Source: Propioniciclava tarda
GTDB taxonomy: Bacteria > Actinomycetota > Actinomycetes > Propionibacteriales > Propionibacteriaceae
Assembly (NCBI RefSeq): GCF_900182665.1
Contig: NZ_FXTL01000003.1
Location: 1-64,000, forward strand
DNA: 64,000 nucleotides
Direction of reading: 5' to 3'
In this document: positions 1 to 60,961 of the stretch, one piece after another
Layout of the letters: every line of letters begins with the position of its first letter
Numbering within the stretch: position 1 is the first letter of the stretch
Made by a program: the position numbers and the translations under genes
Notes under the pieces: generated by a model
Told to the model about the DNA's origin: nothing
Databases searched by the model: none
The model's input: the letters and a program-made list of their open reading frames with translations, nothing else

Positions 1-770
1 GGCCGGCCGAAGTGTTGCGCGATCGCGACCAGGGCCATGAACCGGCGGGTGCCGGTGGCGATCATCTGCGACCCGTTGTCCGATACCGCCAGCAGTAGCG
101 GGGTGAGGCCGTCGTCGGCGTCGGGGTCGACCCGGCCGGTCGCCGTCCGAGCCAGGGCTTCCTTCAGCAGGCCCTCGGATTCCAGGGCCGTGGTGAACGC
201 GGCCTGCACTTGGGTGGTGGTCTCCTCGCTGGATACCAGGTGGGTGAGCCACTTGCGGGACACGAGGTCCTCGATGATCAGCACCTTCGCCCCGCAGCGG
301 GTGAAGTGGGTCGTGTCGTAGATCCATAGGGAATTCGGCTTGTAGGACGCCCAGTCCGGGAACGGCTTGCGTTCCCCACGGACCGGCCGCGGCAGCGGAC
401 GAAAGTGCTTGTCAGACTCGATCAACACCCTGCGCACGGTGGACGGTGATGCCCAGAACCGGCCCACATACGAGCCCCGATGCGCCAGCCGCCGGTGGGA
501 GCGGTCCCGTTCGCCCCACTCGTTGAACACCGCCAGAATCTGCTGAACCTCATCGTCGAGGAGACCGTTGACTGCGACCCCGCCGGGCTTCCGGTCGGCC
601 AGGTCCGTGCGCCGGGCCTGCCAGCGTTCGACCCGCCGCCGGCTGATCTTGAGCACCTCGCACACGGCCTGCAAGCTCCAGCCCTCGCCGACCGCGTGGT
701 CCACCAGACCGAGGAGGCCGGCCTTGCCGACGGCGTCGACACGCACCGGAACAGGCCCGGTCACCGCCAT
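1..770 (-). CDS. IS3-like transposase OrfB (DDE integrase core), 3' end outside window
   Basis: Catalytic subunit of an insertion-sequence transposase. The minus-strand frame is open from an ATG at 770 to the left edge (256 residues visible). An N-terminal helix-turn-helix region with RRRVERW is followed by a linker and the start of an rve-type DDE core. The first Asp is in SLWIYDTTHF and the second in AVSDNGSQM; the catalytic Glu lies beyond the edge. The start overlaps the end of the upstream HTH gene in the string ATGGCGGTGA, the usual arrangement for coupled or frameshifted OrfA/OrfB expression. The IS3-like assignment is from overall organisation; other two-ORF DDE families are possible. 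Confidence 0.8.
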   Translation of the reverse strand, partial: MAVTGPVPVRVDAVGKAGLLGLVDHAVGEGWSLQAVCEVLKISRRRVERWQARRTDLADRKPGGVAVNGLLDDEVQQILAVFNEWGERDRSHRRLAHRGSYVGRFWASPSTVRRVLIESDKHFRPLPRPVRGERKPFPDWASYKPNSLWIYDTTHFTRCGAKVLIIEDLVSRKWLTHLVSSEETTTQVQAAFTTALESEGLLKEALARTATGRVDPDADDGLTPLLLAVSDNGSQMIATGTRRFMALVAIAQHFGR

Positions 771-1129
771 CCGGAGCCCCCTTTTCCCTCCAGCAAGGTG
801 AGCTTGACCGCCAACTCCTTCACCGCCTCCGACAGCCGGGCGACCTCGGCGTTCGCGGCCTCCAACTCGACATCCCGGGGGGTCTTGCCCACCCCGGGTT
901 TCGACGCCGACAAGGCCGCCATCGCGCCCTCCTTGGCGACCTGGCGGAGCTTCATGATCGTCGAACGGTCCACCCCCGCCGCCTCCGCGGCGGCGTTGAT
1001 GGTCGTCTCGCCACGCACGAGCTGGAGGAAGATCTCGTACTTCACCGACGGCGCCAACAACTTCTTCGCGCGCCGCGTAGGGCTCGCCGGGCTCGCCCCG
1101 GCATCCTTGTTCGTCGAGGACATCGACAC
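761..1129 (-). CDS. IS transposase OrfA (helix-turn-helix protein)
   Basis: A 122-residue DNA-binding partner of the OrfB transposase immediately downstream. Residues about 25-65 (KYEIFLQLVRGETTINAAAE onward) form a helix-turn-helix of the transposase type, and a heptad-rich stretch near residues 85-115 (ELEAANAEVARLSEAVKEL) looks like a coiled-coil oligomerisation region, as in IS3 OrfA proteins. The TGA at 761-763 lies inside the OrfB start, so OrfB is made by translational coupling or a -1 frameshift. About 60 bases upstream of the ATG are non-coding and should contain the right inverted repeat, near 1180-1215. Confidence 0.8.
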   Translation of the reverse strand: MSMSSTNKDAGASPASPTRRAKKLLAPSVKYEIFLQLVRGETTINAAAEAAGVDRSTIMKLRQVAKEGAMAALSASKPGVGKTPRDVELEAANAEVARLSEAVKELAVKLTLLEGKGGSGWR

Positions 1130-1140
1130 TCACTCTCGGG

Positions 1141-1542
1141 TCAGCCAGACCCCCACAGTGTGGTCTGATTCAAACCCCGAAATGCGACACGATCCCTGAC
1201 GCAAGACAGGAGCGTCGTACGAGGCGCCTTGGCCTTGCTGACACCGCGGAGCCCGTTGATCCGCATCAGCCGTTCCACGGTGCACCGGGCGACATCGGTG
1301 TGCCCCTGCCGACGCAGTTCGTGCCAGACCTTCCGCACGCCGTACACGCCGTAGTTCGCCTGGTGAACCTCAGAGATCAACCGGACCAGACCGGCATCGG
1401 TCAACGCGCGCCGGCTCGCCGGCCTCGACCGGAACGCGTAGTAGGTGCTCGGGGCGATCGGGATCCCGTGAGTGGTCAGGACCCTGCAGATCGGCTCGAC
1501 CCCGTGCTCGTGCTTGTGGTCGTCGATGAACGCGACGATCAC
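1141..1542 (-). pseudogene. IS3-family transposase OrfB, truncated by IS insertion
   Basis: N-terminal piece of an IS3-family OrfB. It starts with GTG at 1542, overlapping the OrfA stop in GTGA, and contains the HTH_21 region typical of IS3 OrfB (NYGVYGVRKVWHELRRQG, then VERLMRINGLRGV). Homology stops after KAKAPRTT. The remaining residues to the stop at 1141 are unrelated readthrough into the leader of the neighbouring IS. The DDE catalytic core (about 200 residues) is missing, so this copy cannot be active. Confidence 0.8.
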
Positions 1543-1917
1543 CGCTGTGGGCGGTCGAGCTCCGCCTGCGCGAAATACGCGCTCGCTTGCCGCAGGATCG
1601 TGTTCGCCCGCCGCAGCTCACGCACCTCACGCTCCAAGGCGACGATCTTCGCCTTGTCGTCGCTGCTGACACCCTCCCGCACGCCGGTATCGACCTCCGC
1701 CTGGCGGACCCAGTTCCGCAACGCCTCCGGATGAATCCCCAACTGCTTGCCGATCCGGCTGATCGCCCCGGCCCGGCTGGCTGGATCCCTCCGCGCCTCC
1801 ACCGCCATCCGAGTGGCGCGCTCCTTCAATTCTTCCGAATACTTCCTCGGTGCTGCCATGACTCCCATCCTTCCGTGTGATGAGAGCCTCCATCAGACCC
1901 GGGGCGATGCAGGCTCA
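1200..1917 (-). mobile_element. IS3-family element remnant (OrfA plus truncated OrfB)
   Basis: The right end is placed at about 1915 because the sequence reading leftward from there on the minus strand, TGATGAGCCTGCATCG, begins immediately after the neighbouring nucleotidyltransferase's last sense codon and looks like an IS3 terminal repeat. The left end was lost or displaced by the second IS. No matching repeat or target duplication could be checked. Confidence 0.55.
1539..1859 (-). CDS. IS3-family transposase OrfA
   Basis: A 106-residue IS3 OrfA starting at the ATG at 1859 (MAAPRKYSEELK). Residues about 5-55 form the helix-turn-helix with IGKQLGIHPEALRNWVRQ, and residues about 70-95 form the leucine-zipper-like segment VALEREVRELRRANTILRQ. 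It is full length for the family and looks intact, but its OrfB partner is truncated, so the element is dead unless helped in trans. An in-frame ATG at 1868 is an alternative start. Confidence 0.85.
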   Translation of the reverse strand: MAAPRKYSEELKERATRMAVEARRDPASRAGAISRIGKQLGIHPEALRNWVRQAEVDTGVREGVSSDDKAKIVALEREVRELRRANTILRQASAYFAQAELDRPQR

Positions 1918-2831
1918 TCACCGGGCAGTCGCTCCCCGCCTTGCCAGACGGATGACCCCGAGCGCTCCCCGCCCCAGCCGGCTGGCTTGCGCGCGCAGAA
2001 CCTCGGCGGCGTTGGCCGGATGACCCACTTGATGGTCGACCCGGTCGGACTTGGGATGGATTGAATACAGGATCGCCCGGACGCGGTCCAAGGCCGTCGG
2101 CGCGGCCTTCACGAAGGCCACCCACAAGTCGAAGACGTCGGCGTCCGGTTGGCCGAGCAGTCGCCAGAGGTCGTACTCGGGACGATGGGCAAACTCATCA
2201 AGGCGTCCGGTGGCGCCGGCCAAGGCCACATCGGCGCCGAACGCTACCGCCAACATGCGCACCCGGCCTTGGATGGCCGTTGTGGCGTTAGTCCACGGGG
2301 GGCCCACGTCGGCCGACGCGGGCCCCCCGTTCCGTGCGGCGTGCAGGAGAAGCAGCAACCGCTGCGCGTCCACGCTTGGGGCTGGGCACGGGCGGCCCGC
2401 GATGTCCCTCGACTGCCGTTCGCTCCAGAGGGCTGCGAAGGCACGTTCGGGGGTGACTCGGATGCCGGGGAAACGGATGTGGACGTCGGCACCGCCGAGT
2501 TCGGGGTGCGACCAATCCTCCGAGTGCTCCACGGCGCCGCCGCTGTACAGGCGCGTCTTGCGTTGCCAGCCGTGCCGCCTCAACGCAGCCTGAAACCGCT
2601 TGAGGTGCTCCGGGCGGACAAGGATGTCGGCGTCCGCGCTGAGTCGGGGGAGTGCACGCTCCTCCGCGCTGGCGTCGGCGGGGGCCTCCGGTCTGGTGGG
2701 AAGGAGCGAGGCGTCCACGGCCGCCCCCTTGATGTGCAGGATGTCGGCGCCGCAGGAGTCCGCGATGGCCTGCAGTGTGGCGTGGGCGAGGCGGGTGCGG
2801 AGGTCAGCGGGATCGGCGGCAACTCAGCCAT
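1918..2831 (-). CDS. NTP_transf_5-type nucleotidyltransferase, start region frameshifted
   Basis: Uncharacterised nucleotidyltransferase-fold protein (PF14907 type) of about 301 residues. The family signature is present: a helix then ILHIKGAAVDAS, the acidic site LSADADILVRPEHL, and later HSEDWSHPELGGADVHIR. The coding frame that holds KGAA has no ATG, GTG or TTG between the upstream gene's TGA (2824-2826) and the GTG at 2718, which is inside the domain. An ATG at 2831 overlaps the upstream stop (ATGGCTGA) as expected for an operon, but it is in another frame. One missing base near 2810-2820 would join them, so a frameshift or sequencing error is likely. The stop abuts the IS end and may be supplied by it. 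It is the last gene of an HprK-PqqD-nucleotidyltransferase operon. Confidence 0.65.
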
Positions 2832-3096
2832 GGTCGACCTCCCGCAGGACCCCTTGGGCGATGAGGGTGGCCACCGCCGCGCGGGTGGCGTCCACTGCGC
2901 TGCCCTCGGCAGGCGCGCCGAAGGTGGCGACGAGGGCGTCCGCCAACTCGTCGAGCGTGCGCGGCGTCGTGGTGTGCGTCACCAGGTGGGTCCCGAGCGG
3001 GCCAAGCCGGACGTAGCGATCCTCGTAGAGCAGGATGCATTCGCCGCCGAGCACCAGCTGGTCGAGCGCGTCGGCGCGCAAGTACGAGGCGGTCAC
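2824..3096 (-). CDS. PqqD-like peptide-chaperone-family protein 1
   Basis: A 90-residue PqqD-family protein, the fold used as a peptide-recognition element (RRE) in RiPP pathways and found in HPr-rel-A gene sets. It starts with a short beta pair (ECILLYEDRYVRLGPLGTHLV) and continues with a winged-helix pattern: TLDELADALVATFG, then a helix ending in LIAQGVLREV. The GTG start at 3096 overlaps the kinase stop by four bases (GTGA), indicating tight coupling. No peptide-modifying enzyme such as a radical-SAM protein is adjacent. Its likely partners are the kinase and nucleotidyltransferase flanking it; the substrate is unknown. Confidence 0.7.
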   Translation of the reverse strand: MTASYLRADALDQLVLGGECILLYEDRYVRLGPLGTHLVTHTTTPRTLDELADALVATFGAPAEGSAVDATRAAVATLIAQGVLREVDHG

Positions 3097-3896
3097 GCGA
3101 CGTCCCCGATCAGGTCGGCGGCCAGCGGCACCAGGTCGTCGGCCTCGGCGTACGAGCACCGCAGCACGGGCCCCCACCGGTCGGCCAGGTCAGCCAGCCT
3201 GCGCAGAGGTTGGGGGAGCCGGCTCAGCGACGAAGTCTCCGGCAAGATCTGCTCGACGGCGTCCAGGGTGCTGAGGTCGACGATGTCCGGTGCGCCGGCG
3301 TGCCCGGGTGGGCGATCCAGCAGGATCACCCGGCGGACGGTCGGCTCGGGGTGGGCCCGGGCCAGGCCGAGGTCGTCGGGGGACGCCTCCTCTTTCTGTC
3401 CGCCTCCGGGCACGCGTAGCGACAGCGGCTTGGGGTACTGGTGGACGCGCCCGGAGTCGTCGATGCCGACTGTCTCGTCGGTGAGGTAGCCGTACCGGCG
3501 GCCCAGGGTGCGAGCCAAGGTGGTCTTCCCGGTGCCGCCGGGAGCCACGAACACGAGGCTCTCGCCCGTGACCGGGTGGCTGACCGCCCCCGCGTGCAGC
3601 ATCAGCAGTCGACCGACCTGCGCCGCGATCAGGCGACGTGTCACGTCCTGGGTGAGTCGTTGGAGGGCCATCGCCTGTCCGAGCCCGGGATTGCCGGGCG
3701 CTCCCACGGAAGCTGGACCGGGGGCCGGAACGAAGACCTCGAGCGGCTCCGCAACGCGGGCGGGCGCGCGGGGGCCCTCGGCTAGGCACCGCGACCAAGC
3801 GCGCTCGGCAGCGCCGAGAAGGAGCTGGGTTGCTGGCCCAACGAACCGCACCTCGACCGACGCGTCGAGCGCCGCGAGGTGCAGGGCGTGGAGCAT
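3093..3896 (-). CDS. HprK-related kinase (HPr-rel-A type)
   Basis: P-loop protein of 267 residues related to HPr kinase and PEP-carboxykinase-like ATPases. The Walker A is APGGTGKTT, followed by a segment with YLTDETVGI (the acidic position usual after the P-loop in HprK) and YPKPLSLRV, which is characteristic of the HprK-related families. I chose the ATG at 3896 (MLHALHL). A GTG at 4007 in the same frame would leave only 38 bp to the divergent kinase gene and would put a perfect palindrome inside the coding region. No PTS HPr gene is nearby, so classical carbon-catabolite signalling is unlikely. The phosphorylation target is unknown. Confidence 0.65.
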   Translation of the reverse strand: MLHALHLAALDASVEVRFVGPATQLLLGAAERAWSRCLAEGPRAPARVAEPLEVFVPAPGPASVGAPGNPGLGQAMALQRLTQDVTRRLIAAQVGRLLMLHAGAVSHPVTGESLVFVAPGGTGKTTLARTLGRRYGYLTDETVGIDDSGRVHQYPKPLSLRVPGGGQKEEASPDDLGLARAHPEPTVRRVILLDRPPGHAGAPDIVDLSTLDAVEQILPETSSLSRLPQPLRRLADLADRWGPVLRCSYAEADDLVPLAADLIGDVA

Positions 3897-3909
3897 GGGG
3901 GCGACGTTA

Positions 3910-3937
3910 CCAATTCGGGCCGTCCCGCCCGAATTGG
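3910..3937. promoter_or_regulatory. Perfect 11-bp inverted repeat in the divergent promoter region (candidate operator)
   Basis: CCAATTCGGGC (3910-3920), a 6-base spacer, then GCCCGAATTGG (3927-3937). It lies 14 bases upstream of the preferred start of the HprK-related gene and about 110 bases upstream of the Wzc-like gene. It is AT-richer than its surroundings and has no T-tract, which fits a repressor or activator site better than a terminator. Confidence 0.5.
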
Positions 3938-4045
3938 CTCGGGCCAACAGGGAGGCAACTCCTATTGGGAGGCTCTCGCCCGTTCCGGTAACCTGACTAG
4001 TGTTCACCCCGCGACACTGGGGTTTGCCGCGAACGGAAGGGCGAC

Positions 4046-5440
4046 GTGGAACTCCTCGATTACTGGCGACTGGTCAGGCGCAACTGGGTGGTGCTCCTGG
4101 CCTCGACCCTCGTGGGGTTGGCCCTCGCAGCCGTCTACACGCTGGTGCAGCCCACGCTCTACTCGGCCACCGCGTCCGCCTATGTGGTGGCTGGCACGAC
4201 GGGCACCACAGGCGACGCCCTCGCTGGCAGCGCGCTGGCGAAGGCTAAGGCGCAGACCTACCTTCCGTTGGTGACCAGTCAGCAGGTGGCAACCCGCATC
4301 ACCGAGGATCTCGGGCTGGGGTCGACGGAGGGTATCGCGTCCAGCCTCGAGGGCACCGTTGCCAAGGAGTCGGTGCTCCTCCAGATCACCGCCACATCAT
4401 CCTCCGCCGACGCGGCGAGCCGGCTCGCGGACGCCGCCATCCGCGCCACTGCCGCCGAGGTCGAAGCGCTCGAGACGATCAATCCCGCAGGTGCGGCCAA
4501 CCCGTCGACCGTGATCAAGGTCGTGCCGGTGCAGCAGGCTGCGACCCCGGCCGTCCGGACCTCGCCGACGTTGTCGCGTAACTTCGCCATCGGGCCCCTG
4601 CTGGGTCTCATGGCCGGCTTCGTGATCGCGCTCGTGCGTCGTGTTGCCGACCGGCGCGTCCGGACCTCCGTCGAGGCCGAGGAGCACACAGGTGTCGGTA
4701 CGCTCGGCATCATCCCCGACGCCCCGGAGCTCGCCGGAGGTGTCGTCCTCTCCGGCAACATGGGGCCCGCGGCCGAGGCGATGCGCCTGCTGCGCACCAA
4801 CATCCGCTTCGTCAGCGTCGACCAACCCCCGCGGAGCATCGTGGTGACGTCCGCCAACCCTGACGAGGGCAAGTCCACCATCGCGGCGCACCTTGCGGTG
4901 ATGCTGGCCGAATCCGGGCAGCCGACGGTGCTGATCGACGGCGACCTGCGGCGTCCGACGTTGGCTGGGCTGTTCGACGTCGACGGGACAGTGGGCCTCT
5001 CCCAGGTGCTCGCCCGGACCGTGCCCCTGGCGGACGTCCTGATAGACGGCCCCCACCCGAACTTGCGGCTGCTGGCGGCCGGGCGTGTTCCCCCGAACCC
5101 GAGCGAGCTCGTCGGTTCGGAGCGGATGCAGGGCTTGATCGCCGAGCTCGCCGCCACACACCTGGTCATCATCGACGCCCCGCCGCTGCTGGCCGTGACC
5201 GACGCGGGGCTGCTGACGGTGGCCAGCGACGGTGCCCTGCTGGTCATCAAGGCCGGGGGAACCTTCAAGGAGCAGGCTTCGCTCTGCCGTGACACCCTCG
5301 ACAAGGTCGGGGGCGTCCTGCTGGGGACCGTGCTGAACCTCGTCTCCAAGAAGGACATGGGCTCGGCGCGCTACGGCTACGGCTACTCCAGTCACGTGAC
5401 CGAGTACTACTCGCGGCGCGAAGCCCAGCACGGGCCCTAG
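4046..5440 (+). CDS. Wzc/CpsD-type polysaccharide co-polymerase and BY-kinase
   Basis: Bacterial tyrosine autokinase that controls chain length and export of a Wzx/Wzy-type polysaccharide at the membrane; 464 residues. The N-terminal Wzz domain has TM1 at residues 14-34 and TM2 at about 181-199, with an extracytoplasmic helical region between. The kinase domain has Walker A SANPDEGKST (269-278), Walker A' LIDGDLRRP (296-304) and Walker B LVIIDAPP (373-380). The tail carries a tyrosine cluster (YGYGY and EYYS), the expected autophosphorylation site. The start is GTG. A LMW tyrosine phosphatase at 6437-6982 is its probable antagonist. Here Wzz and kinase are fused in one chain, as in proteobacterial Wzc and many actinobacteria. 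Confidence 0.9.
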   Translation: MELLDYWRLVRRNWVVLLASTLVGLALAAVYTLVQPTLYSATASAYVVAGTTGTTGDALAGSALAKAKAQTYLPLVTSQQVATRITEDLGLGSTEGIASSLEGTVAKESVLLQITATSSSADAASRLADAAIRATAAEVEALETINPAGAANPSTVIKVVPVQQAATPAVRTSPTLSRNFAIGPLLGLMAGFVIALVRRVADRRVRTSVEAEEHTGVGTLGIIPDAPELAGGVVLSGNMGPAAEAMRLLRTNIRFVSVDQPPRSIVVTSANPDEGKSTIAAHLAVMLAESGQPTVLIDGDLRRPTLAGLFDVDGTVGLSQVLARTVPLADVLIDGPHPNLRLLAAGRVPPNPSELVGSERMQGLIAELAATHLVIIDAPPLLAVTDAGLLTVASDGALLVIKAGGTFKEQASLCRDTLDKVGGVLLGTVLNLVSKKDMGSARYGYGYSSHVTEYYSRREAQHGP

Positions 5441-5503
5441 GGTCGGGGTGCCTTCCGCGATAGCAGTCGCGCACAGCGGGCCGTCGAAGAACCCTTGAAG
5501 GCC

Positions 5504-5524
5504 CCGGCCCGTCTCGCGGGCCGG
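5504..5524 (+). terminator. GC-only hairpin after the Wzc-like gene
   Basis: CCGGCCCG, loop TCTCG, then CGGGCCGG: eight perfect pairs, 64 bases after the stop codon. There is no downstream T-run, so it may be a weak terminator or an mRNA-stabilising hairpin. The rest of the 205-base gap to the next gene holds only that gene's leader, ending in GAGGAG before the ATG. Confidence 0.4.
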
Positions 5525-5645
5525 CCGACAGGCGCCGAACGCTCGCACGCGCTAGGCTCCTGAGCGACGCATTTCCTGCCGCCACTCTCACGGGCGCACG
5601 CGCCCACTGATTCCCTTGAGGTTGCTCTAGAACGAGGAGACCAAG

Positions 5646-6059
5646 ATGTCTGACCTGACCGACCTGACTGAAAATTCCGTGGGCCGTCCGAGCCGGCGCC
5701 AGGTGCTCGTCGGCACCGCATGGGCCGTGCCCGTGGTGATGGGTGTCGGGGCTACGCCGGCGATGGCTGCCAGCAGCGTGGTGAGCGTCGGGGTTACTAC
5801 TTCGGGCAACAATGGGAAGACTGTCACGTTCACGTTTACGTTCACCGACGCCAAGCCGAACGATACGGTGCAGATCACCGCGTTCGGCGACGGCTTCAAG
5901 GTGTCAGGTCAAATGCCGAGTGCCGTAACTATTTCCAACAACAGCGCCGTCATCACTGTCCACACCCCGACGAACCCGAGCAATCCGAAGAAGACTTACA
6001 GCGTCACTTACTTGGTGTCGGGTGTGGTGGGTTCGAAGACGACTTACTTCAGTTACTGA
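5646..6059 (+). CDS. Small Tat-type exported beta-rich protein
   Basis: A 137-residue protein of unknown function. Residues 18-45 form a Tat-like signal: SRRQVLVGTAWAVP, a hydrophobic core, then ATPAMAAS with probable cleavage after AMA. The mature part is about 90 residues, Ser/Thr/Val-rich with alternating patterns (VTFTFTFTDA, YSVTYLVSG), suggesting an Ig-like beta sandwich ending in two aromatic residues (FSY). It contains no cysteine. A strong SD (GAGGAG, spacing 7) precedes the ATG. It sits between the BY-kinase and the second PqqD-like gene. Its signal resembles that of the protein at 60482-60961. It could be a surface component or substrate of the neighbouring system; this is inference. 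Confidence 0.75.
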   Translation: MSDLTDLTENSVGRPSRRQVLVGTAWAVPVVMGVGATPAMAASSVVSVGVTTSGNNGKTVTFTFTFTDAKPNDTVQITAFGDGFKVSGQMPSAVTISNNSAVITVHTPTNPSNPKKTYSVTYLVSGVVGSKTTYFSY

Positions 6060-6071
6060 CATTGGTCCAAG

Positions 6072-6440
6072 CTAGGGAGTTTTTCGCTCGCCAGACAATT
6101 CCCACCCTGAGTGCCGACACGGCAACTGCGGGCTGGGCGCCTCAGTTGGGTTGGCCAGGAGCCCAGCGCCGGACAGGTCCTGCAAGAACGTCCCGACGGC
6201 TTCTGCGATGTCAGCGGACGGGCGCCCGACCAGTCTGGCGACCTCGCTGGCCACGTCGCCGCCCTCGATGGCGACCAGCCAGATCAAGCGTGCAGTGCCC
6301 TTGAGGAGCACGGTCCGGCCCTCGGGGACGACTGTCAGGTACAGCTCCTCGGCCACGCCGAAGTCTGGGCCATCCACCCAAGCGACGTTGTCCGGCACGC
6401 GGTAGGAATGCGACGGCTGGGCTTGCTCGTGGGAACTCAC
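6072..6440 (-). CDS. PqqD-like protein 2
   Basis: A 122-residue second PqqD-family protein. The start is GTG at 6440, overlapping the phosphatase stop in GTGA. The fold pattern matches: a beta pair (ELYLTVVPEGRTVLLKG), then a helix with ARLIWLVAIEGG, a winged-helix middle (SEVARLVGRPSADIAEAVGT) and a last helix with LQDLSGAGLL. A roughly 25-residue Pro/Ser-rich tail follows. It is last in the SGNH-phosphatase-PqqD operon and converges on the exported-protein gene with a 12-base gap. Two PqqD-like proteins within 4 kb flank the tyrosine kinase, which suggests paired adaptor roles rather than a PQQ pathway; no pqqA, C or E genes are present. Confidence 0.65.
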   Translation of the reverse strand: MSSHEQAQPSHSYRVPDNVAWVDGPDFGVAEELYLTVVPEGRTVLLKGTARLIWLVAIEGGDVASEVARLVGRPSADIAEAVGTFLQDLSGAGLLANPTEAPSPQLPCRHSGWELSGERKTP

Positions 6441-6982
6441 GCGGGCTGACCTCCCGAGCCGGCCAACCGGGGCAGGATTCCTGCCAGGAGACGATCGAGG
6501 TGCGTGGCGCACTGGGCGGCCGCCTCGGCTCCCCGTCCGTACGGGTCGGGCACGTCGCCTGACGCGTGAGTCGGCCTGCGAATCCGGTGAGCCTCGGCGA
6601 GGAGACCACGGGGGTCCAGGCCCGGTGCGGCGGCGGCCAGGTCGGCGAACTGCTGCAATGTGAAGGTGTGCCGGAACGCCCCGGGCCATTCGTCGAGGAT
6701 GAAATCGCGGTGCAGGGATTCCGCAGTGAGGATCAGTTGCACCTCGCGGATGATTTCCGGGGTGAGCCGCCGCGACCTGAACCGGGAGGGGTCTCCGTGC
6801 CGGGAGCGCACCTCCGCTGCCATGGGCGGGTCCATGGGCTGGTCGACCCAGCCGTGCGTGCCGGCGCTGGAGACCCGAACCGGGGCGTCCGCACCGAGCA
6901 GCTGTTCCGACCGGACCGTCGCGTACGCCGACCGACAGATGTTCGCCGTGCACACGAACAGCACGCGAAGCGGGTCAGTCAT
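6437..6982 (-). CDS. Low-molecular-weight protein-tyrosine phosphatase (Wzb-like)
   Basis: Cytoplasmic phosphatase of 181 residues that probably dephosphorylates the BY-kinase encoded at 4046-5440. The N-terminal P-loop is CTANICRS with catalytic Cys11 and Arg17 (C-X5-R). The general-acid region DPYG is present near residue 150. Start at the ATG at 6982, overlapping the upstream stop in ATGA. A 35-residue insertion around [19 protein letters not shown] is usual for actinobacterial members. It belongs to the same short operon as the SGNH protein and PqqD-like protein 2. Confidence 0.88.
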
Positions 6983-7791
6983 CGGGCGGGCGGTGCAGCC
7001 AGGGCGTCGGCCACTGTTTCCGCCCACAGCCGGGAGCCCTGTGGGGTCGGGCTGCCGTCGACCTCCACCAGCCCGTCTCGGGGGCTGGGGTCGCCCGTGA
7101 ACGCGCTGTAGATGTCGACGGTGGGGAAGCCCTTGGCGTCTGCCCACTTCTTGATCGCCTGAGTCGTCTCCTGCTGGATGGCTTCGGTGCGCGCGCGCTC
7201 CGGGTTCTGGATCAGCACGACGACAGAAGCCGTTTGGCTCTTCGCGCGGACCGCTTCAAGGACGGCGTCGAGCTGCGCGGGGATCTCCGTGGCGGAGCGG
7301 CGGTGACCGTAGCTGAGGAGCACGACGTCGGCCTCCTGCCAGGCCCGGACGACGCGATCGGGTTCACGCGCCATGTCGGGCGTCCTGACGCTCGCGTTCC
7401 AGACCCTGAGGCTGCGGGACGCCGATCCGAACGTGACGGGGTCGGCGTACCTGCCCGAGGTCCAGTTCCAGGCGTTGTAGGAGACCGTGGCCTGCCCGGC
7501 GAGGTGGTCGCGCGCCCACACCGACACCCATTCGTCCATTTCGTCGCCAGAGCCGTCGCCGACCACGAGGATCGACCCTCCGCGGGGAGACTTGATGATG
7601 TCGGCGACGCCGTTCAGGTCTTGGCGGGACGCGTCTGCGGTTGCGGGTGCGAGCTTGGACGGGGTGGCGGCCGGCGCTGTGCTGGCCCCCCGTACCGGTC
7701 CCGGGAGTGCCTCGTCAGGTGGCGCCCACGTCTTGAGGGCCGCCAGCATCACCAAGTTCGCGGTGACCACTGCCAGAGCCGCGAGACCCAC
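6979..7791 (-). CDS. Membrane-anchored SGNH-like hydrolase, catalytic His not seen
   Basis: A 270-residue protein with one N-terminal membrane segment (residues 1-20) and a low-complexity Pro/Ala linker, so the enzyme domain probably lies outside the membrane. Block I is VVGDGSGDE, a variant of GDS; a helix-strand pattern with VVLLSYGHR resembles block III. At block V, where DxxH is expected, the sequence reads [12 protein letters not shown], so the catalytic His is not visible. It could be a degenerate hydrolase or a polysaccharide O-acyl transferase/esterase partner. The start is GTG at 7791, just after an in-frame TAG. It leads the phosphatase-PqqD operon. Confidence 0.6.
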
Positions 7792-8016
7792 CAGCGGCCA
7801 CTAGCCCCTTGTCAGTCGCGCTCGTGCCACACGGGTCACCCTACCCGAGGTCTCGGCTTGGTCGGGCGATCCCGCGGTCTGGTCGCCCGAGTGGCCCCTG
7901 AGGTCCGTCGCGTTGCGCCGCAGAAGGGGAGCCGGCCGAGTCCCTCAAGCCCGGCTTGGGAAATGGCCGCGAGGTCCACAGGGCCCGCGATGTCTCCCAC
8001 CGCCACGGTTCCGCTG
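7792..8016. other. Intergenic stretch before the GroEL fragment
   Basis: 225 bases with no convincing gene. It holds the leader of the SGNH gene on the minus strand and the unrelated sequence that replaced the 5' part of groEL. Short open frames here lack family similarity. Confidence 0.5.
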
Positions 8017-8478
8017 GTCGGCGCTGCCACCGAGGTCGAGCTCAAGGAGAAGAAGCACCGCATCGAGGACGCCGTCTCCGCGACGCGCGCCGCGATCGAG
8101 GAGGGCATCGTCGCCGGTGGCGGCTCGGCTCTCGTCCACGCGGCGTCCGTGCTGGCCGATCACCTCGGCAAGACGGGTGACGAGAAGGCGGGCGTCCAGA
8201 TCGTGGCGAAGGCTGTGGCCGAGCCGCTGCGCTGGATCGCGGAGAACGGCGGCGAGCCGGGCTACGTGATCGTGTCCAAGGTCAAGGAGCTGCCGGTGGG
8301 CCAGGGTTACAACGCCGCCACCGGTGTCTACGAGGACCTGGTCCAGGCCGGCGTCATCGACCCGGTCAAGGTCACGCGCTCGGCGCTGGCGAACGCCGCG
8401 TCCATCGCCGCACTGCTGCTCACCACCGAGACCCTGGTGGTCGAGAAGCCGGCCGACGAGGACGAGCACAAGCACTGA
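8017..8478 (+). pseudogene. groEL: GroEL C-terminal fragment
   Basis: The last 153 residues of a Hsp60 chaperonin: [20 protein letters not shown], then [34 protein letters not shown] and a tail ending EDEHKH. A full protein has about 540 residues, so the equatorial N-terminus and the apical domain are missing. Homology begins abruptly at the GTC at 8017. The preceding codons (MSPTATVPL) are unrelated, and no ATP-binding region exists upstream. The reading frame is intact and codon use is normal, so the truncation may be recent or the fragment may be a recombination by-product. A strong terminator follows directly. Confidence 0.88.
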
Positions 8479-8579: not shown

Positions 8580-12015
<3,436 letters not shown>

Positions 12016-12026
12016 GGAACGCAGCA

Positions 12027-13133
12027 ATGATCGAAATCGGACGCTCCAAGCGGGCCGCCGTCGTCTACGGCTTCGACGACATCGCGATCGTGCCCACCCG
12101 GCGCACGCGGACGCCCTCGGACGTCAACCTCACCTGGTCGATCGATGCGCTGTCGTTCGAGTTCCCGCTGGTCGCCGCGCCGATGGACTCGGTCATGTCG
12201 CCCGCGACCGCGATCGAGTTCGGCAAGCTCGGCGGCCTCGGCGTCCTGAACCTCGAGGGCCTGTGGACGCGCTACGAGGATCCGACCGAGCTGTTCGCCG
12301 AGCTGGCAGCCATCAGCGATCCGATCAAGGCGACCCGCCGGCTGCAGGCGATCTACGCCGAGCCGGTCAAGGGCGAGCTCATCGCGGCCCGCATGAAGGA
12401 GATTCGGGACGCCGGCGTCCCGGTCGCGGGGTCGCTGTCGCCGCAGCGGACGCGCGAGTTCGCGTCGATCGTGGAGAAGGCGGGGGTGGACTTCTTCGTG
12501 ATCCGCGGCACCACGGTTTCGGCTGAGCACGTGGCCACCAGCGAGGAGCCGCTCAACCTCAAGGAGTTCATCTACGCGCTCGACGTTCCCGTCATCGTCG
12601 GCGGCTGCGCGACCTATCAGGCCGCCCTACACCTGATGCGGACCGGCGCCGCGGGCGTCCTCGTCGGCTTCGGTGGCGGGGCGACGAAGAAGACCCGCAA
12701 CGTGCTGGGCGTCGAGGTGCCGATGGCGTCCGCGATCGCCGACGTGGCGGCGGCGCGTCGGGACTACCTGGACGAGTCCGGTGGCCGGTACGTGCACGTG
12801 ATCGCCGACGGGGCGCTGGGCAAGTCGGGCGACATCGCCAAGGCGATCGCCTGTGGCGCGGACGCCGCGATGGTTTCGACGCCGCTGGCGCGAGCCACGG
12901 ACGCCCCCGGCCGCGGCTGGCACTGGGGTCCGGAGGCCTGGCACCCGCGGCTCCCGCGCGGTGAGCGCGCGCGCTTCGACCAGGTCGGGACGCTCGAGGA
13001 GGTCATGTTCGGCCCGGCCGTGACGGCGGACGGCACGATGAACCTCGTCGGGGCGCTGAGGAAGTCCATGGCCACCTGCGGCTACACCGAGGTCAAGGAC
13101 TTCCAGCGCGTCGAGGTCGTCGTCCACAACTAG
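12027..13133 (+). CDS. guaB3: GuaB3 family IMP dehydrogenase-related protein
   Basis: A 368-residue actinobacterial-type IMPDH paralogue without CBS domains. It keeps the barrel start (VYGFDDIAIVP, AAPMDSVMSP) and the phosphate-binding end ([19 protein letters not shown]). At the catalytic loop, where IMPDH has GSICTTR, it reads GGGATKKTR, so the nucleophilic Cys is absent and IMPDH chemistry is unlikely. GMP-reductase-like or regulatory roles have been proposed for relatives. It probably shares the guaB transcript (11-base gap). Confidence 0.92.
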   Translation: MIEIGRSKRAAVVYGFDDIAIVPTRRTRTPSDVNLTWSIDALSFEFPLVAAPMDSVMSPATAIEFGKLGGLGVLNLEGLWTRYEDPTELFAELAAISDPIKATRRLQAIYAEPVKGELIAARMKEIRDAGVPVAGSLSPQRTREFASIVEKAGVDFFVIRGTTVSAEHVATSEEPLNLKEFIYALDVPVIVGGCATYQAALHLMRTGAAGVLVGFGGGATKKTRNVLGVEVPMASAIADVAAARRDYLDESGGRYVHVIADGALGKSGDIAKAIACGADAAMVSTPLARATDAPGRGWHWGPEAWHPRLPRGERARFDQVGTLEEVMFGPAVTADGTMNLVGALRKSMATCGYTEVKDFQRVEVVVHN

Positions 13134-13214
13134 GGCGACGCCGGCCGGTGGTTGGCCGTTCAACGTCAGGTTCGGGCCCCTTGGGGGGCGCGAAACCAGC
13201 AGAGATTGCGCTCG

Positions 13215-14441
13215 TTACGACGCCGAACCGGTCGGTGTCCCCGTGGAGGCATCCACTGTGATGCCCGGCACCGCGGAGGCCGCGGCGTCGGCGTCCCGCT
13301 GGACCAAAGACCTCATGCGGGACTCCTGGTCCGGCGACGACCAGCGGACGCCGTCGAGTCCGGTCCGGGACTCGGAGACGACCCGATCGAGCCCGGCGCG
13401 CGAGATGAGTCCCAGCTCGAGCGCCTTCGTCGCGCAGCCGACGTAGGTGTCGTGGAAGAAGATGCCCTTCGCCGCGTACTCGGCGCGGCGGGTGTCCGGG
13501 GTGTCGACGACGTCGTGGATGAACGCCGCGCGCAGCGTGCCGGGGAAGCGTTCGGCGAGCTTCTCGCTCAAGATGACGTCGCCTTGGCCCGAGTCGCCCA
13601 GGAACACCAGGTGATATTCGGGGAACAGGCCGTGGTAGTGCTCGATGTTGACCAGTTTCTGGCCCGCCATCAGGTCGTGGGTGAACAACGACAGCCAGGT
13701 GCCGGTGATCACCGACGACTGTGCGATGCCGGCCTTGGCGAGCGACGACCTGGTGGCCGTCTCGATCAGCCCCAGGACGTCCCCCGGACGGGCCGTCACG
13801 AACGTCAGGTCGCCGAGCGAGAAGGGGTCATCGTGGGGGCCGTGATCGAGGGCGTCGTAGAGCGCCAAGAGCCCCGGGTAGAGGGTGCCCTTCGGGTAGC
13901 GGTTGTCGTGCAGTCGGCAGAAGGCCGTGTCGTCGATGTCGGAGATGATCTTCGCCTCGTCGCACGCGAAGGTGTCCGCCTCGGCGGCGAGGTGGTCCAG
14001 GATCTGTCGCCGCAGATCGCCGTCGTCGACGGCCCCGAACACCAGCCCCTCGAGGTCGTAGACGTCGGTCCGGCTGTTGATCTGGTTCTTGAGGTGAGTG
14101 AGTTCGACCCCCGTCCGCGCTAGCAGCAGGTCGCGGATCGCCTCTTCGCGGGCGCGTCCGGACCAGCCACGTTGCAGCCCGTAGATCACCTCCGCGGCCG
14201 CCGCGACGCTCAGCTCGGACTGCCGCTCGCGAGTCAACAACTCGATGAGGGCGGTCCGGTTGTCGGGTCCGAGCAGGCGATCGTCCAGGCTGGCGAACAG
14301 CCGGTGCATGTCGGTGCCGACGATCATGTCGTTCAGCTCGGCGGTCGTCGCGCCCCGCAGGAGGACCAGCGCCTCGCCCTCGCGGGTGGCGTCCGTGGGG
14401 CCCTCGATCAGGGCTCGCAGCAGTGCAGTCGGGTCGGTCAT
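13215..14441 (-). CDS. App1-like phosphatidate phosphatase (HAD-type) domain protein
   Basis: A 408-residue cytoplasmic protein. An N-terminal helical region of about 150 residues is followed by the App1 catalytic domain: IISDIDDTAF with DIDDT at 168-172 (the DxDxT phosphatase motif), LTFVTARPGD with the conserved Thr, GQKLVNIEHY and FLGDSGQGDVILSEKLA. The fungal App1 enzyme dephosphorylates phosphatidate. A Ser/Thr/Ala-rich tail follows residue 385. The start is one base after the stop of a diacylglycerol-kinase-like gene (TGAGATG), so the two are co-expressed and may catalyse opposing steps. Confidence 0.8.
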   Translation of the reverse strand: MTDPTALLRALIEGPTDATREGEALVLLRGATTAELNDMIVGTDMHRLFASLDDRLLGPDNRTALIELLTRERQSELSVAAAAEVIYGLQRGWSGRAREEAIRDLLLARTGVELTHLKNQINSRTDVYDLEGLVFGAVDDGDLRRQILDHLAAEADTFACDEAKIISDIDDTAFCRLHDNRYPKGTLYPGLLALYDALDHGPHDDPFSLGDLTFVTARPGDVLGLIETATRSSLAKAGIAQSSVITGTWLSLFTHDLMAGQKLVNIEHYHGLFPEYHLVFLGDSGQGDVILSEKLAERFPGTLRAAFIHDVVDTPDTRRAEYAAKGIFFHDTYVGCATKALELGLISRAGLDRVVSESRTGLDGVRWSSPDQESRMRSLVQRDADAAASAVPGITVDASTGTPTGSAS

Positions 14442-14442
14442 C

Positions 14443-15369
14443 TCAGCCCTTCTTCGGGGTCAACACCATGAGTTCGGACGCCGCGACGCGCCAGCGCGCC
14501 TCGTCCACGGCCGGGAACGGGTCGCCGTCGAGGTGGACCGGCTGCGGCGTCCGCGGACGCACCACGACGTCGTGGGCGCGTCCGTAGTCGAGGGCAGCGA
14601 CGTCGGACGACACGTGCAGGACGCCTTTGGCCGCGACCGACGCCCAGTGCCACGGACGCTTCACGGCGACGATGAGCGTGTCGAGGACGCCGTCGTCGGC
14701 GCGGGCGTCCGCGAAGACGGTGATACCAGCCGGGAGGCGTCCGCAGTTGCCGGCGAGCACGCACCAGGCGTCCACCTCGCGCGCCGGACGCCCGTCGATC
14801 GCGACGGTCATCGGCAGCGGTGGACGCCAGGCGTGCCGCAGGCCCGCCTCGAAGTAGGCGAGCCAACTGAGCCTGCGCTTGAGCCAGGGCCGGGTTGCCA
14901 GCACCGTCGCTGCGTCGCGACCGATGCCGGCGACCACGAGAAACGGTTGCTCGCCGGACCACTCGTCCCCGTGCCGAGACCGCGCCCAGCCGATGTCGCT
15001 GCTGGTCGGCGTCCCAATCAATGCCGTGCTGACTTGGCCCGATAGGCGAGCGGGCAGGCCGAGGTTGCGGGCGAACAGGTTCGCCGTCCCGGTGGGGACG
15101 ATCCCGAGGGGCACGCCGCTGCCGGCCAGCGCGCCCGCCACCTGCCGGACGGTTCCGTCCCCGCCCACGACCACCACGAGCCGCGCACCGGCGTCCAGGG
15201 CGGCCCTGGCCTGGCTCCCTCCCGGCTCGGCGACCGACGTGCGCAGGATCGTCAGCGGACGCCCCGAGGCGGCCGCTTGGCGCGCCAACTCGGACGCCGC
15301 CCGTCGGGCCGAGCGGTGGACGGGGTTGAGCACGACGAACACGCGCTGAGGAGTGTTCGGTGGGTGCAC
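14443..15369 (-). CDS. Diacylglycerol/lipid kinase family protein (DagK/YegS-type)
   Basis: A 308-residue cytoplasmic lipid kinase. The DAGK catalytic domain lies at residues 5-140: RVFVVLNPVHRSARR, VVVVGGDGTVRQVAGAL (GGDGT nucleotide motif) and GIVPTGTANLFARNL. The C-terminal beta-sandwich ends with VHLDGDPFP. The start is a GTG at 15369. It is followed by the App1-like phosphatase after a single base, suggesting a phosphatidate/diacylglycerol recycling pair. The exact lipid (diacylglycerol, undecaprenol or sphingoid base) cannot be read from the sequence. Confidence 0.85.
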   Translation of the reverse strand: MHPPNTPQRVFVVLNPVHRSARRAASELARQAAASGRPLTILRTSVAEPGGSQARAALDAGARLVVVVGGDGTVRQVAGALAGSGVPLGIVPTGTANLFARNLGLPARLSGQVSTALIGTPTSSDIGWARSRHGDEWSGEQPFLVVAGIGRDAATVLATRPWLKRRLSWLAYFEAGLRHAWRPPLPMTVAIDGRPAREVDAWCVLAGNCGRLPAGITVFADARADDGVLDTLIVAVKRPWHWASVAAKGVLHVSSDVAALDYGRAHDVVVRPRTPQPVHLDGDPFPAVDEARWRVAASELMVLTPKKG

Positions 15370-60481: not shown

Positions 60482-60961
60482 TCAGCAGGGAGGGAGGGAC
60501 GGGAAGCTCACCGTCGCCGTCGTCGACAGAGTCTGACCCTGGTAGGTAGAGGTGTAGGTCAACGATGCAGTGCCGTTGGCGAAGCAGGTCGCGGGCATCG
60601 AGTCCGCGGTGATGGTCACGGTGCCGCCGGCCGTCACGGTGGCGCAGCCGGACGCGGGGCTGTACGACGAGGTGTTGATCGAGACGCTCGCGCAGCCGCT
60701 GGGGCTCATGGTGCCGCTCGAGATGCAAACGGTGGAACTCGTTCCCGACGTGTTCGAGAAGACGAACGAGAACTGGTAGACCTTTTTGCCACCGTTGCCG
60801 GTGAGCTTGCAGACCGCGCTCGCCGTTGTCGGCTGGACCGGCACCCCGGATGCGGCGACAGATGGCGCCAGCGCGGCGATCGTCACCGCAGGAAACGTCC
60901 AGGCCAAGCCCTTCGCCAACGATCGGCGCGAGGCTTGGGCGTGCGAGAGCGATTGCAGCAT
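60482..60961 (-). CDS. Small Tat-type exported Cys-rich protein
   Basis: A 159-residue exported protein of unknown function. The signal has SRRSLAKGLAWTFPAV and ends PSVAAS, with likely cleavage before SGVP. The mature part has six cysteines (CKLTGNG, VCISSG, GCASVS, GCATVT, TCFANG, final C), likely forming disulphides, and is Ser/Thr-rich with repeated beta patterns. An SD (GGAG) lies 6 bases before the ATG. The signal shares SRRxxxxGxAWxxP with the protein at 5646-6059, though the mature parts differ. I recognise no family. Confidence 0.75.
   Translation of the reverse strand: MLQSLSHAQASRRSLAKGLAWTFPAVTIAALAPSVAASGVPVQPTTASAVCKLTGNGGKKVYQFSFVFSNTSGTSSTVCISSGTMSPSGCASVSINTSSYSPASGCATVTAGGTVTITADSMPATCFANGTASLTYTSTYQGQTLSTTATVSFPSLPPC

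Follow-up and report, generated by a model that had tools for sequence, protein, structure and literature searches.

At the start of contig NZ_FXTL01000003.1 of the actinobacterium Propioniciclava tarda (contig C3 of a 2.97 Mb draft genome, assembly GCF_900182665.1), genes for an HprK-like kinase (HprK), two PqqD-like proteins (PqqD1 and PqqD2), a nucleotidyltransferase (NTase), a bacterial tyrosine kinase (BY-kinase) and a protein-tyrosine-phosphatase-like protein lie around the gene of a small protein, T1, predicted to be exported by the twin-arginine translocation (Tat) pathway. The first 64,000 nt of the contig were analysed and are called the window. The gene set exists as described and is conserved, and we consider it moderately likely that the locus is the core of a system that modifies a family of surface proteins exported by Tat. 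It would act before export and be guided by RREs, the recognition elements of ribosomally synthesized and post-translationally modified peptides (RiPPs).

A leader shared by predicted Tat-exported proteins

In sequence and alignment, T1 (5646..6059, plus strand) displays a twin-arginine signal, a hydrophobic region and an AxA site, and its export is predicted. The core of its leader (5694..5774, plus strand) contains the arginine pair (5694-5699), the motif WxxPxV (5721-5738) and, 17 residues behind the Trp (W+17), Ser43 (5772-5774), the candidate acceptor of a modification. Leaders of this kind, RR-x7-WxxPx[V/I]...S, mark a protein family that is scattered over genomes with 1 to 14 copies in each. 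They were searched with a hidden Markov model (HMM) of 49 columns, built from 28 leaders, which detected T1 in the whole genome with an E value of 6.6e-16. Four leader proteins are present in the P. tarda genome, and one of them, the predicted Tat-exported protein T2, is located unlinked at 60.5-61.0 kb of the window (60482..60961, minus strand; E 5.9e-9) with the arginine pair, WTFPAV and a Ser at W+17.

Altogether, 83 leader proteins were collected, 58 from 24 of the 57 loci described below and 25 from the window and L092-L111. WxxPx[LVIFA] occurs in all 83, a figure that holds for W and P partly by construction, since the HMM seed consisted of HprK-linked proteins with invariant W and P; the +5 residue and the Ser are less affected. 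The spacing RR-x7-W was found in 72 and Ser at W+17 in 71 of the 83 leaders. Alignment of 72 non-redundant leaders revealed Pro32 in 98%, Ala35 in 94% followed by Ala in 57%, and Ser37 in 87% of 70 residues. Ordinary Tat signals collected from the same loci numbered six, too few to serve as a proper background for the Ser. Conservation ends after Ser37. The leader motif and the Ser column were defined before comparison with the literature on linear polyphosphorylated peptides (LPP), a published system treated below. When the residue following the signal-peptidase site was read with a crude regular expression, loose in its register, the outcome was Gly 23, Ser 19 and Thr 15 times in 72 leaders; this reading was replaced by the alignment and a fixed distance from the Trp.

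Applied to called genes, the leader pattern was found in 29 of 47 T genes and in none of 956 others; the 18 T genes missed had been given a start codon within the leader, an error that could also conceal leaders in the 956. Mature parts have a median length of 143 residues and range from 13 to 524 (72 of the 83 proteins, those with a parsed site). For T1, with a mature part of about 95 residues, Pfam and NCBIfam scans gave no match above cut-off, and among ten T proteins scanned with Pfam one exceeded it (Big_13, Ig-like).

A short leader protein with an LPxTG-like tail was noted beside a diverged HprK-PqqD pair in genome G088 (L111, from position 386 onwards), pointing to a possible link with sortase anchoring.

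Gene neighbourhoods in other actinobacteria

Scanning species genomes with an HprK alignment yielded at least 59 loci. Two of them (L090 and L091), non-actinobacterial and with short matches, were excluded, leaving 57, some of which come from genomes also contained in the genome samples used below. Flanks extended to 10 kb or to the contig end, and single frames were taken from stop to stop. A PqqD1 gene is located within 500 bases of HprK in all 57 loci. Within 8 kb, BY-kinase was detected in 37 loci, PqqD2 in 31, NTase and the phosphatase in 30 each and a Tat leader in 24; all six families are present in 13. HprK and PqqD1 share a single open frame in 26 loci, the phosphatase and HprK in 12, all of them from Demequina, and PqqD1 and NTase in two. 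The nearest PqqD gene at no more than 300 bases is PqqD2 for 18 of 32 NTase genes in these loci and PqqD1 for seven.

In Demequina the order is BY-kinase, phosphatase-HprK and PqqD1, followed by several genes for Tat proteins either directly or after NTase-PqqD2. Up to six Tat-leader proteins per locus were seen in L045 (11.2-18.2 kb), L048, L056 and others of this genus. Most of them are encoded by tandem genes behind HprK-PqqD1; their leaders are similar and their mature parts differ.

Co-occurrence in whole genomes

Fixed genome samples were searched with HMMs of the leader, HprK, NTase and BY-kinase, absence meaning that a genome is outside the match list. In a sample of 198 genomes from the order, HprK was detected in 31, the leader in 31 and NTase in 27. 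HprK and the leader occur together in 26 genomes, each without the other in five, and neither in 162. Fisher p values were 1e-22 (HprK with leader) and 2e-26, both uncorrected for kinship among the genomes. NTase is present in all 26 genomes with HprK and leader, in none of the five with HprK only and in none of the five with the leader only; one further, weak match (1.2e-12) was obtained elsewhere. Among the matches listed, BY-kinase is found in 112 of the 198 genomes, in all 26 complete ones and in 86 of the 172 others (p 9e-8).

Similar patterns were obtained with other samples. In 57 relatives, both HprK and leader were found in ten genomes, HprK only in two (G012 and, weakly, G054), the leader only in two (G007, which is 72% complete, and, weakly, G045) and neither in 43; NTase was present in 11, including G007 and G012 and not G043. 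In 148 genomes of the class, the thresholds as run gave nine with both, six with HprK only, three with the leader only and 130 with neither, and the seven genomes with strong HprK matches (E <1e-30) are the seven with leader matches of E <1e-8. Contrasts exist within genera. In genus g25, HprK and leader are both present in four genomes and both absent from three. In genus g67, HprK, NTase and leader are all found in one genome, and in two HprK is the only one of them. These contrasts argue against pure ancestry.

Of the 26 genomes with HprK, leader and NTase, 14 have HprK no more than 10 kb from a Tat leader and 15 have it equally close to NTase, compared with 0.86 and 0.20 expected by chance. 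These genomes contain 123 leaders, of which at least 51 have a listed gene for HprK, NTase or BY-kinase at a distance of up to 20 kb. Since the other 72 lie beyond this distance, the co-occurrence does not reflect synteny only. An earlier note on this DNA, made from the sequence, had let its proposal depend on whether the HprK, PqqD and NTase genes keep company with BY-kinases and small Tat proteins in other genomes, and both the neighbourhoods and the whole-genome profiles reveal that they do.

Kinase, PqqD proteins and nucleotidyltransferase

The kinase gene (3093..3896, minus strand) has an ATG at 3896 in a frame that is open from a GTG at 4007. Its product matches TIGR04352 only partially, with 26.4 bits at a cut-off of 200. 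In an alignment with 11 relatives, the Walker A sequence GGTGKTT and a GYLTDE block were recognized, and Walker A and the TDE block look intact by eye. Comparing the HprK profile with PDB sequences was discarded: among the best 60 of 191 matches, nearly all were ABC or P-loop ATPases aligned over the Walker region. In place of the window protein, a fusion of HprK with PqqD that occurs naturally in a relative (L080) was used to judge the fold. The model of the fusion, calculated with 43 alignment rows, reached a predicted local distance difference test (pLDDT) score of 94.7 and a predicted template modelling score of 0.90. Phosphoenolpyruvate carboxykinase (PEPCK) was its best Foldseek match in PDB (1ii2, E 3e-5), followed by HprK/P structures (3tqf, 1knx, 2qmh) at about 3e-3, with low TM-scores by query of 0.19 to 0.38. 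In a second structural alignment, PEPCK was found with Z 12.6 and a root mean square deviation of 4.6 over 247 residues; all of the best 50 rows were PEPCK, and HprK/P was absent from these 50. PEPCK and HprK/P are structural relatives. From the model, the kinase is predicted to have the PEPCK/HprK type of fold, and in its chemistry it may be nearer to either side.

PqqD1 (2824..3096, minus strand), a putative RRE-like leader-binding domain, carries PF05402 above cut-off (26.2 bits, cut-off 23.4). PqqD2 (6072..6440, minus strand) is weak by sequence (PF05402 18.6 bits, below cut-off), but its single-chain model (pLDDT 85.5) indicates an RRE fold. The three best PDB matches of the model are structures of the lasso peptide leader reader TbiB1 with bound leader (5v1v on top; E 1.4e-4 to 5.1e-4), with TM-scores by target of 0.76-0.83 (0.83 for 5v1v), and the fourth is a different lasso B1 protein; 5v1v, 5v1u and 6jx3 are among the fold matches. 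Of the folds named in the earlier note, the PqqD fold is upheld by this model; for the kinase, the assignment goes as far as the PEPCK/HprK type.

The NTase gene (1918..2823, minus strand; PF14907, E 4e-10) is in the same frame as PqqD1, from which only the TGA at 2824-2826 separates it. No start codon precedes a GTG at 2718 in its frame, and comparison with L033 places the expected N-terminus in another frame. Judging from its reading frames, the window copy is either truncated or interrupted by a frame change, unless the sequence contains an error. Relatives contain intact homologues. D64, D66 and D113 are invariant in an alignment of five rows, and the three Asp residues presumably form a catalytic signature, which looks intact by eye. 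A search of PDB sequences with the NTase profile gave no matches.

The BY-kinase (4046..5440, plus strand) has a Wzz domain, a nucleotide-binding domain and a Tyr-rich tail, and PF02706, PF01656 and TIGR01007 (156.9 bits, cut-off 108) are all above cut-off. The tail reads GYGYSSHVTEYY; its Tyr cluster looks intact by eye. This tail was tried as a target of PqqD and rejected, the PqqD-type motif being present in the last 80 residues of one out of 43 BY-kinases and anywhere in five. The earlier note had offered the exported protein or the BY-kinase tail as substrate; with the motif in all leaders collected, the former is favoured and the latter dropped. In the low-molecular-weight (LMW) protein-tyrosine-phosphatase-like product (6437..6982, minus strand; PF01451, E 2.9e-15), a CTANICRS P-loop and a DPY motif look intact by eye.

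Comparison with known systems

The closest published gene set is that of LPP from Bacillota, in which the RRE LppB binds a YxxP leader and LppK phosphorylates Ser3 of LppA, and whose clusters are located in capsular polysaccharide loci (PMC13381572). The same source gives the lasso RRE motif as [Y/W]xxPx[L/V/I/F/A], with paeninodin leaders of the WxxP type, and calls LPP and paeninodins restricted to Bacillota. Shared with LPP are discrete RREs (here PqqD1 by Pfam and PqqD2 by predicted fold), an NTP (nucleoside triphosphate) transferase (here as a frame-interrupted copy), a setting within capsular polysaccharide loci and a [Y/W]xxP leader with a Ser near the signal-peptidase site, judged for the present leaders by sequence. 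The HprK-like kinase of LPP may have its counterpart here in the PEPCK/HprK-type protein with its partial match to TIGR04352. From Tyr to Ser there are 18 residues in LPP and from Trp to Ser 17 here; if cleavage follows Ala35, the Trp would be at -16, as is the Tyr in LppA. LPP differs by a SipW-like peptidase, an MsbA-like exporter and one to three local precursors of 35-200 residues. In contrast, the present set is characterized by Tat leaders, two PqqD proteins, fusions with phosphatase and kinase and, as we propose, many dispersed protein substrates. Neither a SipW-like peptidase nor an MsbA-like exporter was found among the eight products of the window locus, to which this inspection was confined, a genome-wide search not having been made.

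In pseudomycoidin, PsmK phosphorylates a Ser, and the attachment of one or two hexoses to the phosphate requires the NTase homologue PsmN; nucleotidylation followed by a host glycosyltransferase is considered possible in one review (PMC8498205, PMC9266682). With the paeninodin and pseudomycoidin systems (PadeK, PsmK, PsmN) the window locus shares a putative HprK-like kinase, an NTase homologue and, for paeninodin, a leader of the WxxP type. The acceptor Ser is C-terminal in these peptides, whereas here it would be near the mature N-terminus. A C-terminal acceptor as in paeninodin was considered for T1 and discarded, since T1 ends in Tyr. B2 peptidase and macrolactam synthetase were likewise absent from the eight products, again without a genome-wide search.

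The HPr-rel-A families TIGR04352 and TIGR04353, an HprK-related kinase with a PqqD relative, are the nearest named curated families. The earlier note had seen a resemblance to HPr-rel-A gene sets, which comes down to a relative at best: scores are below the NCBIfam cut-offs, far below for the kinase, the best PqqD1 in a relative reached 25.3 bits at a cut-off of 35, and window PqqD1 gave no match to TIGR04353 at E 0.5. The PEP-CTERM/EpsH system, compared by description, resembles the present one in that diverse exported proteins linked to exopolysaccharide carry one short signal, in several copies per genome, and in that phylogenetic profiles associate the signal with a dedicated protein (PMC1569441). 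There, the signal is C-terminal and the protein is the membrane protein EpsH, a proposed transpeptidase; here, an N-terminal Tat leader is combined with a cytoplasmic kinase and NTase.

No link of these genes with Tat leaders, Actinomycetota or exopolysaccharide was found in the open-access literature, to which the search was limited; such a link may exist elsewhere. By its leader sequences, the system probably differs from the LPP and lasso kinase-NTase systems in having Tat proteins of Actinomycetota as substrates.

Proposed mechanism and alternative explanations

In the mechanism we propose, the shared leader would be read in the cytoplasm. Its WxxPx[V/I] motif, the putative binding site of PqqD, is embedded in the hydrophobic stretch of the Tat signal. 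The leader would be held in the cytoplasm by PqqD1, which is paired or fused with HprK, and by PqqD2, whose gene is often next to that of NTase. HprK would phosphorylate the conserved Ser just past the signal-peptidase site (W+17), and NTase would add to the phosphate, perhaps a hexose, as with the kinase/NTase pair of pseudomycoidin. Tat would then export the folded, modified cargo, and signal peptidase would leave the tag at the N-terminus. BY-kinase/Wzz and the phosphatase may belong to the same programme, in which the tag probably ties or times the protein with surface polysaccharide. Dependence of Ser phosphorylation on PqqD is suggested by analogy and by the HprK-PqqD fusions. The use of Tat would fit an ATP-dependent cytoplasmic modification that has to precede export, and the constant company of BY-kinase suggests attachment of the tag to surface polysaccharide, or timing with it. 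A more far-reaching version is put forward only tentatively, as it seems rather doubtful: in a genome-wide N-terminal labelling code of Actinomycetota, the motif hidden in the Tat signal would send up to fourteen proteins per genome to HprK and NTase, which would build a phospho-sugar stub at the very start of the mature protein, joined after export to surface polysaccharide to yield covalent conjugates under BY-kinase control.

A number of observations weigh against modification of the leader proteins. The choice of Ser as acceptor follows from conservation, and the kinase fold is nearer to PEPCK. In the passages on LPP considered here, a requirement for the RRE is reported for cleavage of the leader and not for the kinase, and deletion of lppN left the detectable LPP products unchanged (PMC13381572). 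The kinase fold and this scope of the RRE requirement slightly lower our confidence in the proposal. Both NTase copies of the P. tarda genome are frame-interrupted, at different places (window 1918-2831; L019 on contig C7, 11310-12238), so that the extension step may be lost here, or the draft is wrong. PqqD1 is the only family beside HprK within 8 kb in 12 of the 57 loci. In the order sample, five of the 31 HprK genomes are without NTase and leader, and five of the 31 leader genomes are without HprK and NTase at the thresholds used. In the class sample, NTase is present in five of the seven genomes with strong HprK and leader matches, G043 and G184 being without it, and its link with the leader is weaker (6/2/6/134 for both, NTase only, leader only and neither). 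Individual genomes also deviate: G012 has HprK and NTase without leader, G007 has NTase and leader without an HprK match, and G115 has NTase and two weak leaders without an HprK match at threshold.

Among the alternatives, the most serious, although we regard it as unlikely, is a regulatory circuit in which HprK-PqqD, with the phosphatase where fused, acts on the BY-kinase or another polysaccharide protein, and the Tat proteins are mere cargo of the same surface layer. It would account for the phosphatase-HprK frames of Demequina and for the presence of BY-kinase in every complete genome. It is also favoured by the Rathayibacter loci L073, L075 and L081, in which only HprK, PqqD1, BY-kinase and phosphatase were detected among the families scanned, without NTase or leader; from these reduced forms, HprK may have a second role on the polysaccharide side, a further point against our proposal. 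Such a circuit is difficult to reconcile with the rarity of the PqqD-type motif in BY-kinases and with leader proteins that track HprK and NTase though many are unlinked, and half of the genomes outside the complete set contain BY-kinase as well. A less probable explanation is that PqqD1 and PqqD2 are chaperones of Tat leaders, like TorD and DmsD, which time export, the kinase and NTase sensing occupancy of the leader without modifying the exported protein. The RRE fold and the position of the motif within the Tat hydrophobic region are consistent with it, but the conserved Ser behind the cleavage site would be left without a role, and in both published kinase systems considered, LPP and pseudomycoidin, the peptide is reported to be modified.

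Slightly less probable again is an LPP-like RiPP pathway proper, by which small modified peptides would be cut from the T proteins and released. LPP as the closest published gene set, with a conserved leader and a variable C-terminus in its precursors of 35-200 residues, speaks for it; the mostly protein-sized mature parts, one of ten with an Ig-like domain, and the lack of a peptidase or exporter family among the eight window gene products speak against it. That an ordinary polysaccharide island has gathered unrelated small genes by chance is very improbable. The window copy is flanked by apparent transposase genes and a groEL fragment, and its cargo could be mixed, but the same set recurs in many genera, where genes are fused in single frames and the genome profiles agree. 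The interpretation of the earlier note, peptide- or protein-directed phosphorylation or nucleotidylation controlling exopolysaccharide export, is partly supported: it was right in direction and is here narrowed to the exported protein, with control of export as a possible role.

Organization of the window locus and further copies

From left to right, the locus consists of NTase-PqqD1-HprK on the minus strand, BY-kinase-T1 on the plus strand and PqqD2-phosphatase-SGNH on the minus strand, followed by a groEL 3' fragment. The genes reported in the earlier note were found in their places, with Pfam/NCBIfam matches of varying strength for all but T1, but the SGNH/GDSL-type gene (6979..7791, minus strand; PF13472, 32.9 bits, at cut-off; N-terminal hydrophobic stretch) lies almost wholly past the end of the region it described (1918-6982). 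A model built from this one SGNH sequence matched only itself among 59 listed loci, leaving its membership in the module unsupported. Window positions 1-1868 contain two regions that look transposase-like by eye, apparently one inserted in the other; the contig break is probably within a repeat. At 7990-8478, 156 residues of a GroEL end are encoded, 95% identical to the GroEL gene on contig C22; bordering the island, this fragment hints at a boundary created by recombination or duplication.

A second copy of HprK-PqqD1-NTase-PqqD2-phosphatase is present in the same genome (L019, C7:107800-127706, at 10490-13280), its HprK being 49% identical to that of the window and its neighbours presumably, from inspection by eye, genes of dTDP-rhamnose and GDP-sugar synthesis. 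A third, diverged HprK-NTase pair was noted about 20 kb into contig C1 (L031, 8898-14501). There, a gene at 13992-14501 may combine a PqqD-like domain with a Tat signal and a mature part that is short and rich in Thr and Pro. Its module HMM E value was 0.0017, and Pfam gave IclR helix-turn-helix (0.0065), TAT_signal (0.016) and PqqD (0.068), all below cut-off. If real, which is weakly supported, this gene would place a leader reader in cis to the protein that is exported.

Significance

If the proposed modification takes place, many actinobacterial Tat proteins, 123 in the 26 genomes, would belong to one system in which the address can be read and the modified residue is predicted. Chemistry guided by RREs has been known from small peptides and would be extended to whole exported proteins. 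It would also explain why Tat is used and would link the modification to the control of capsule or biofilm.

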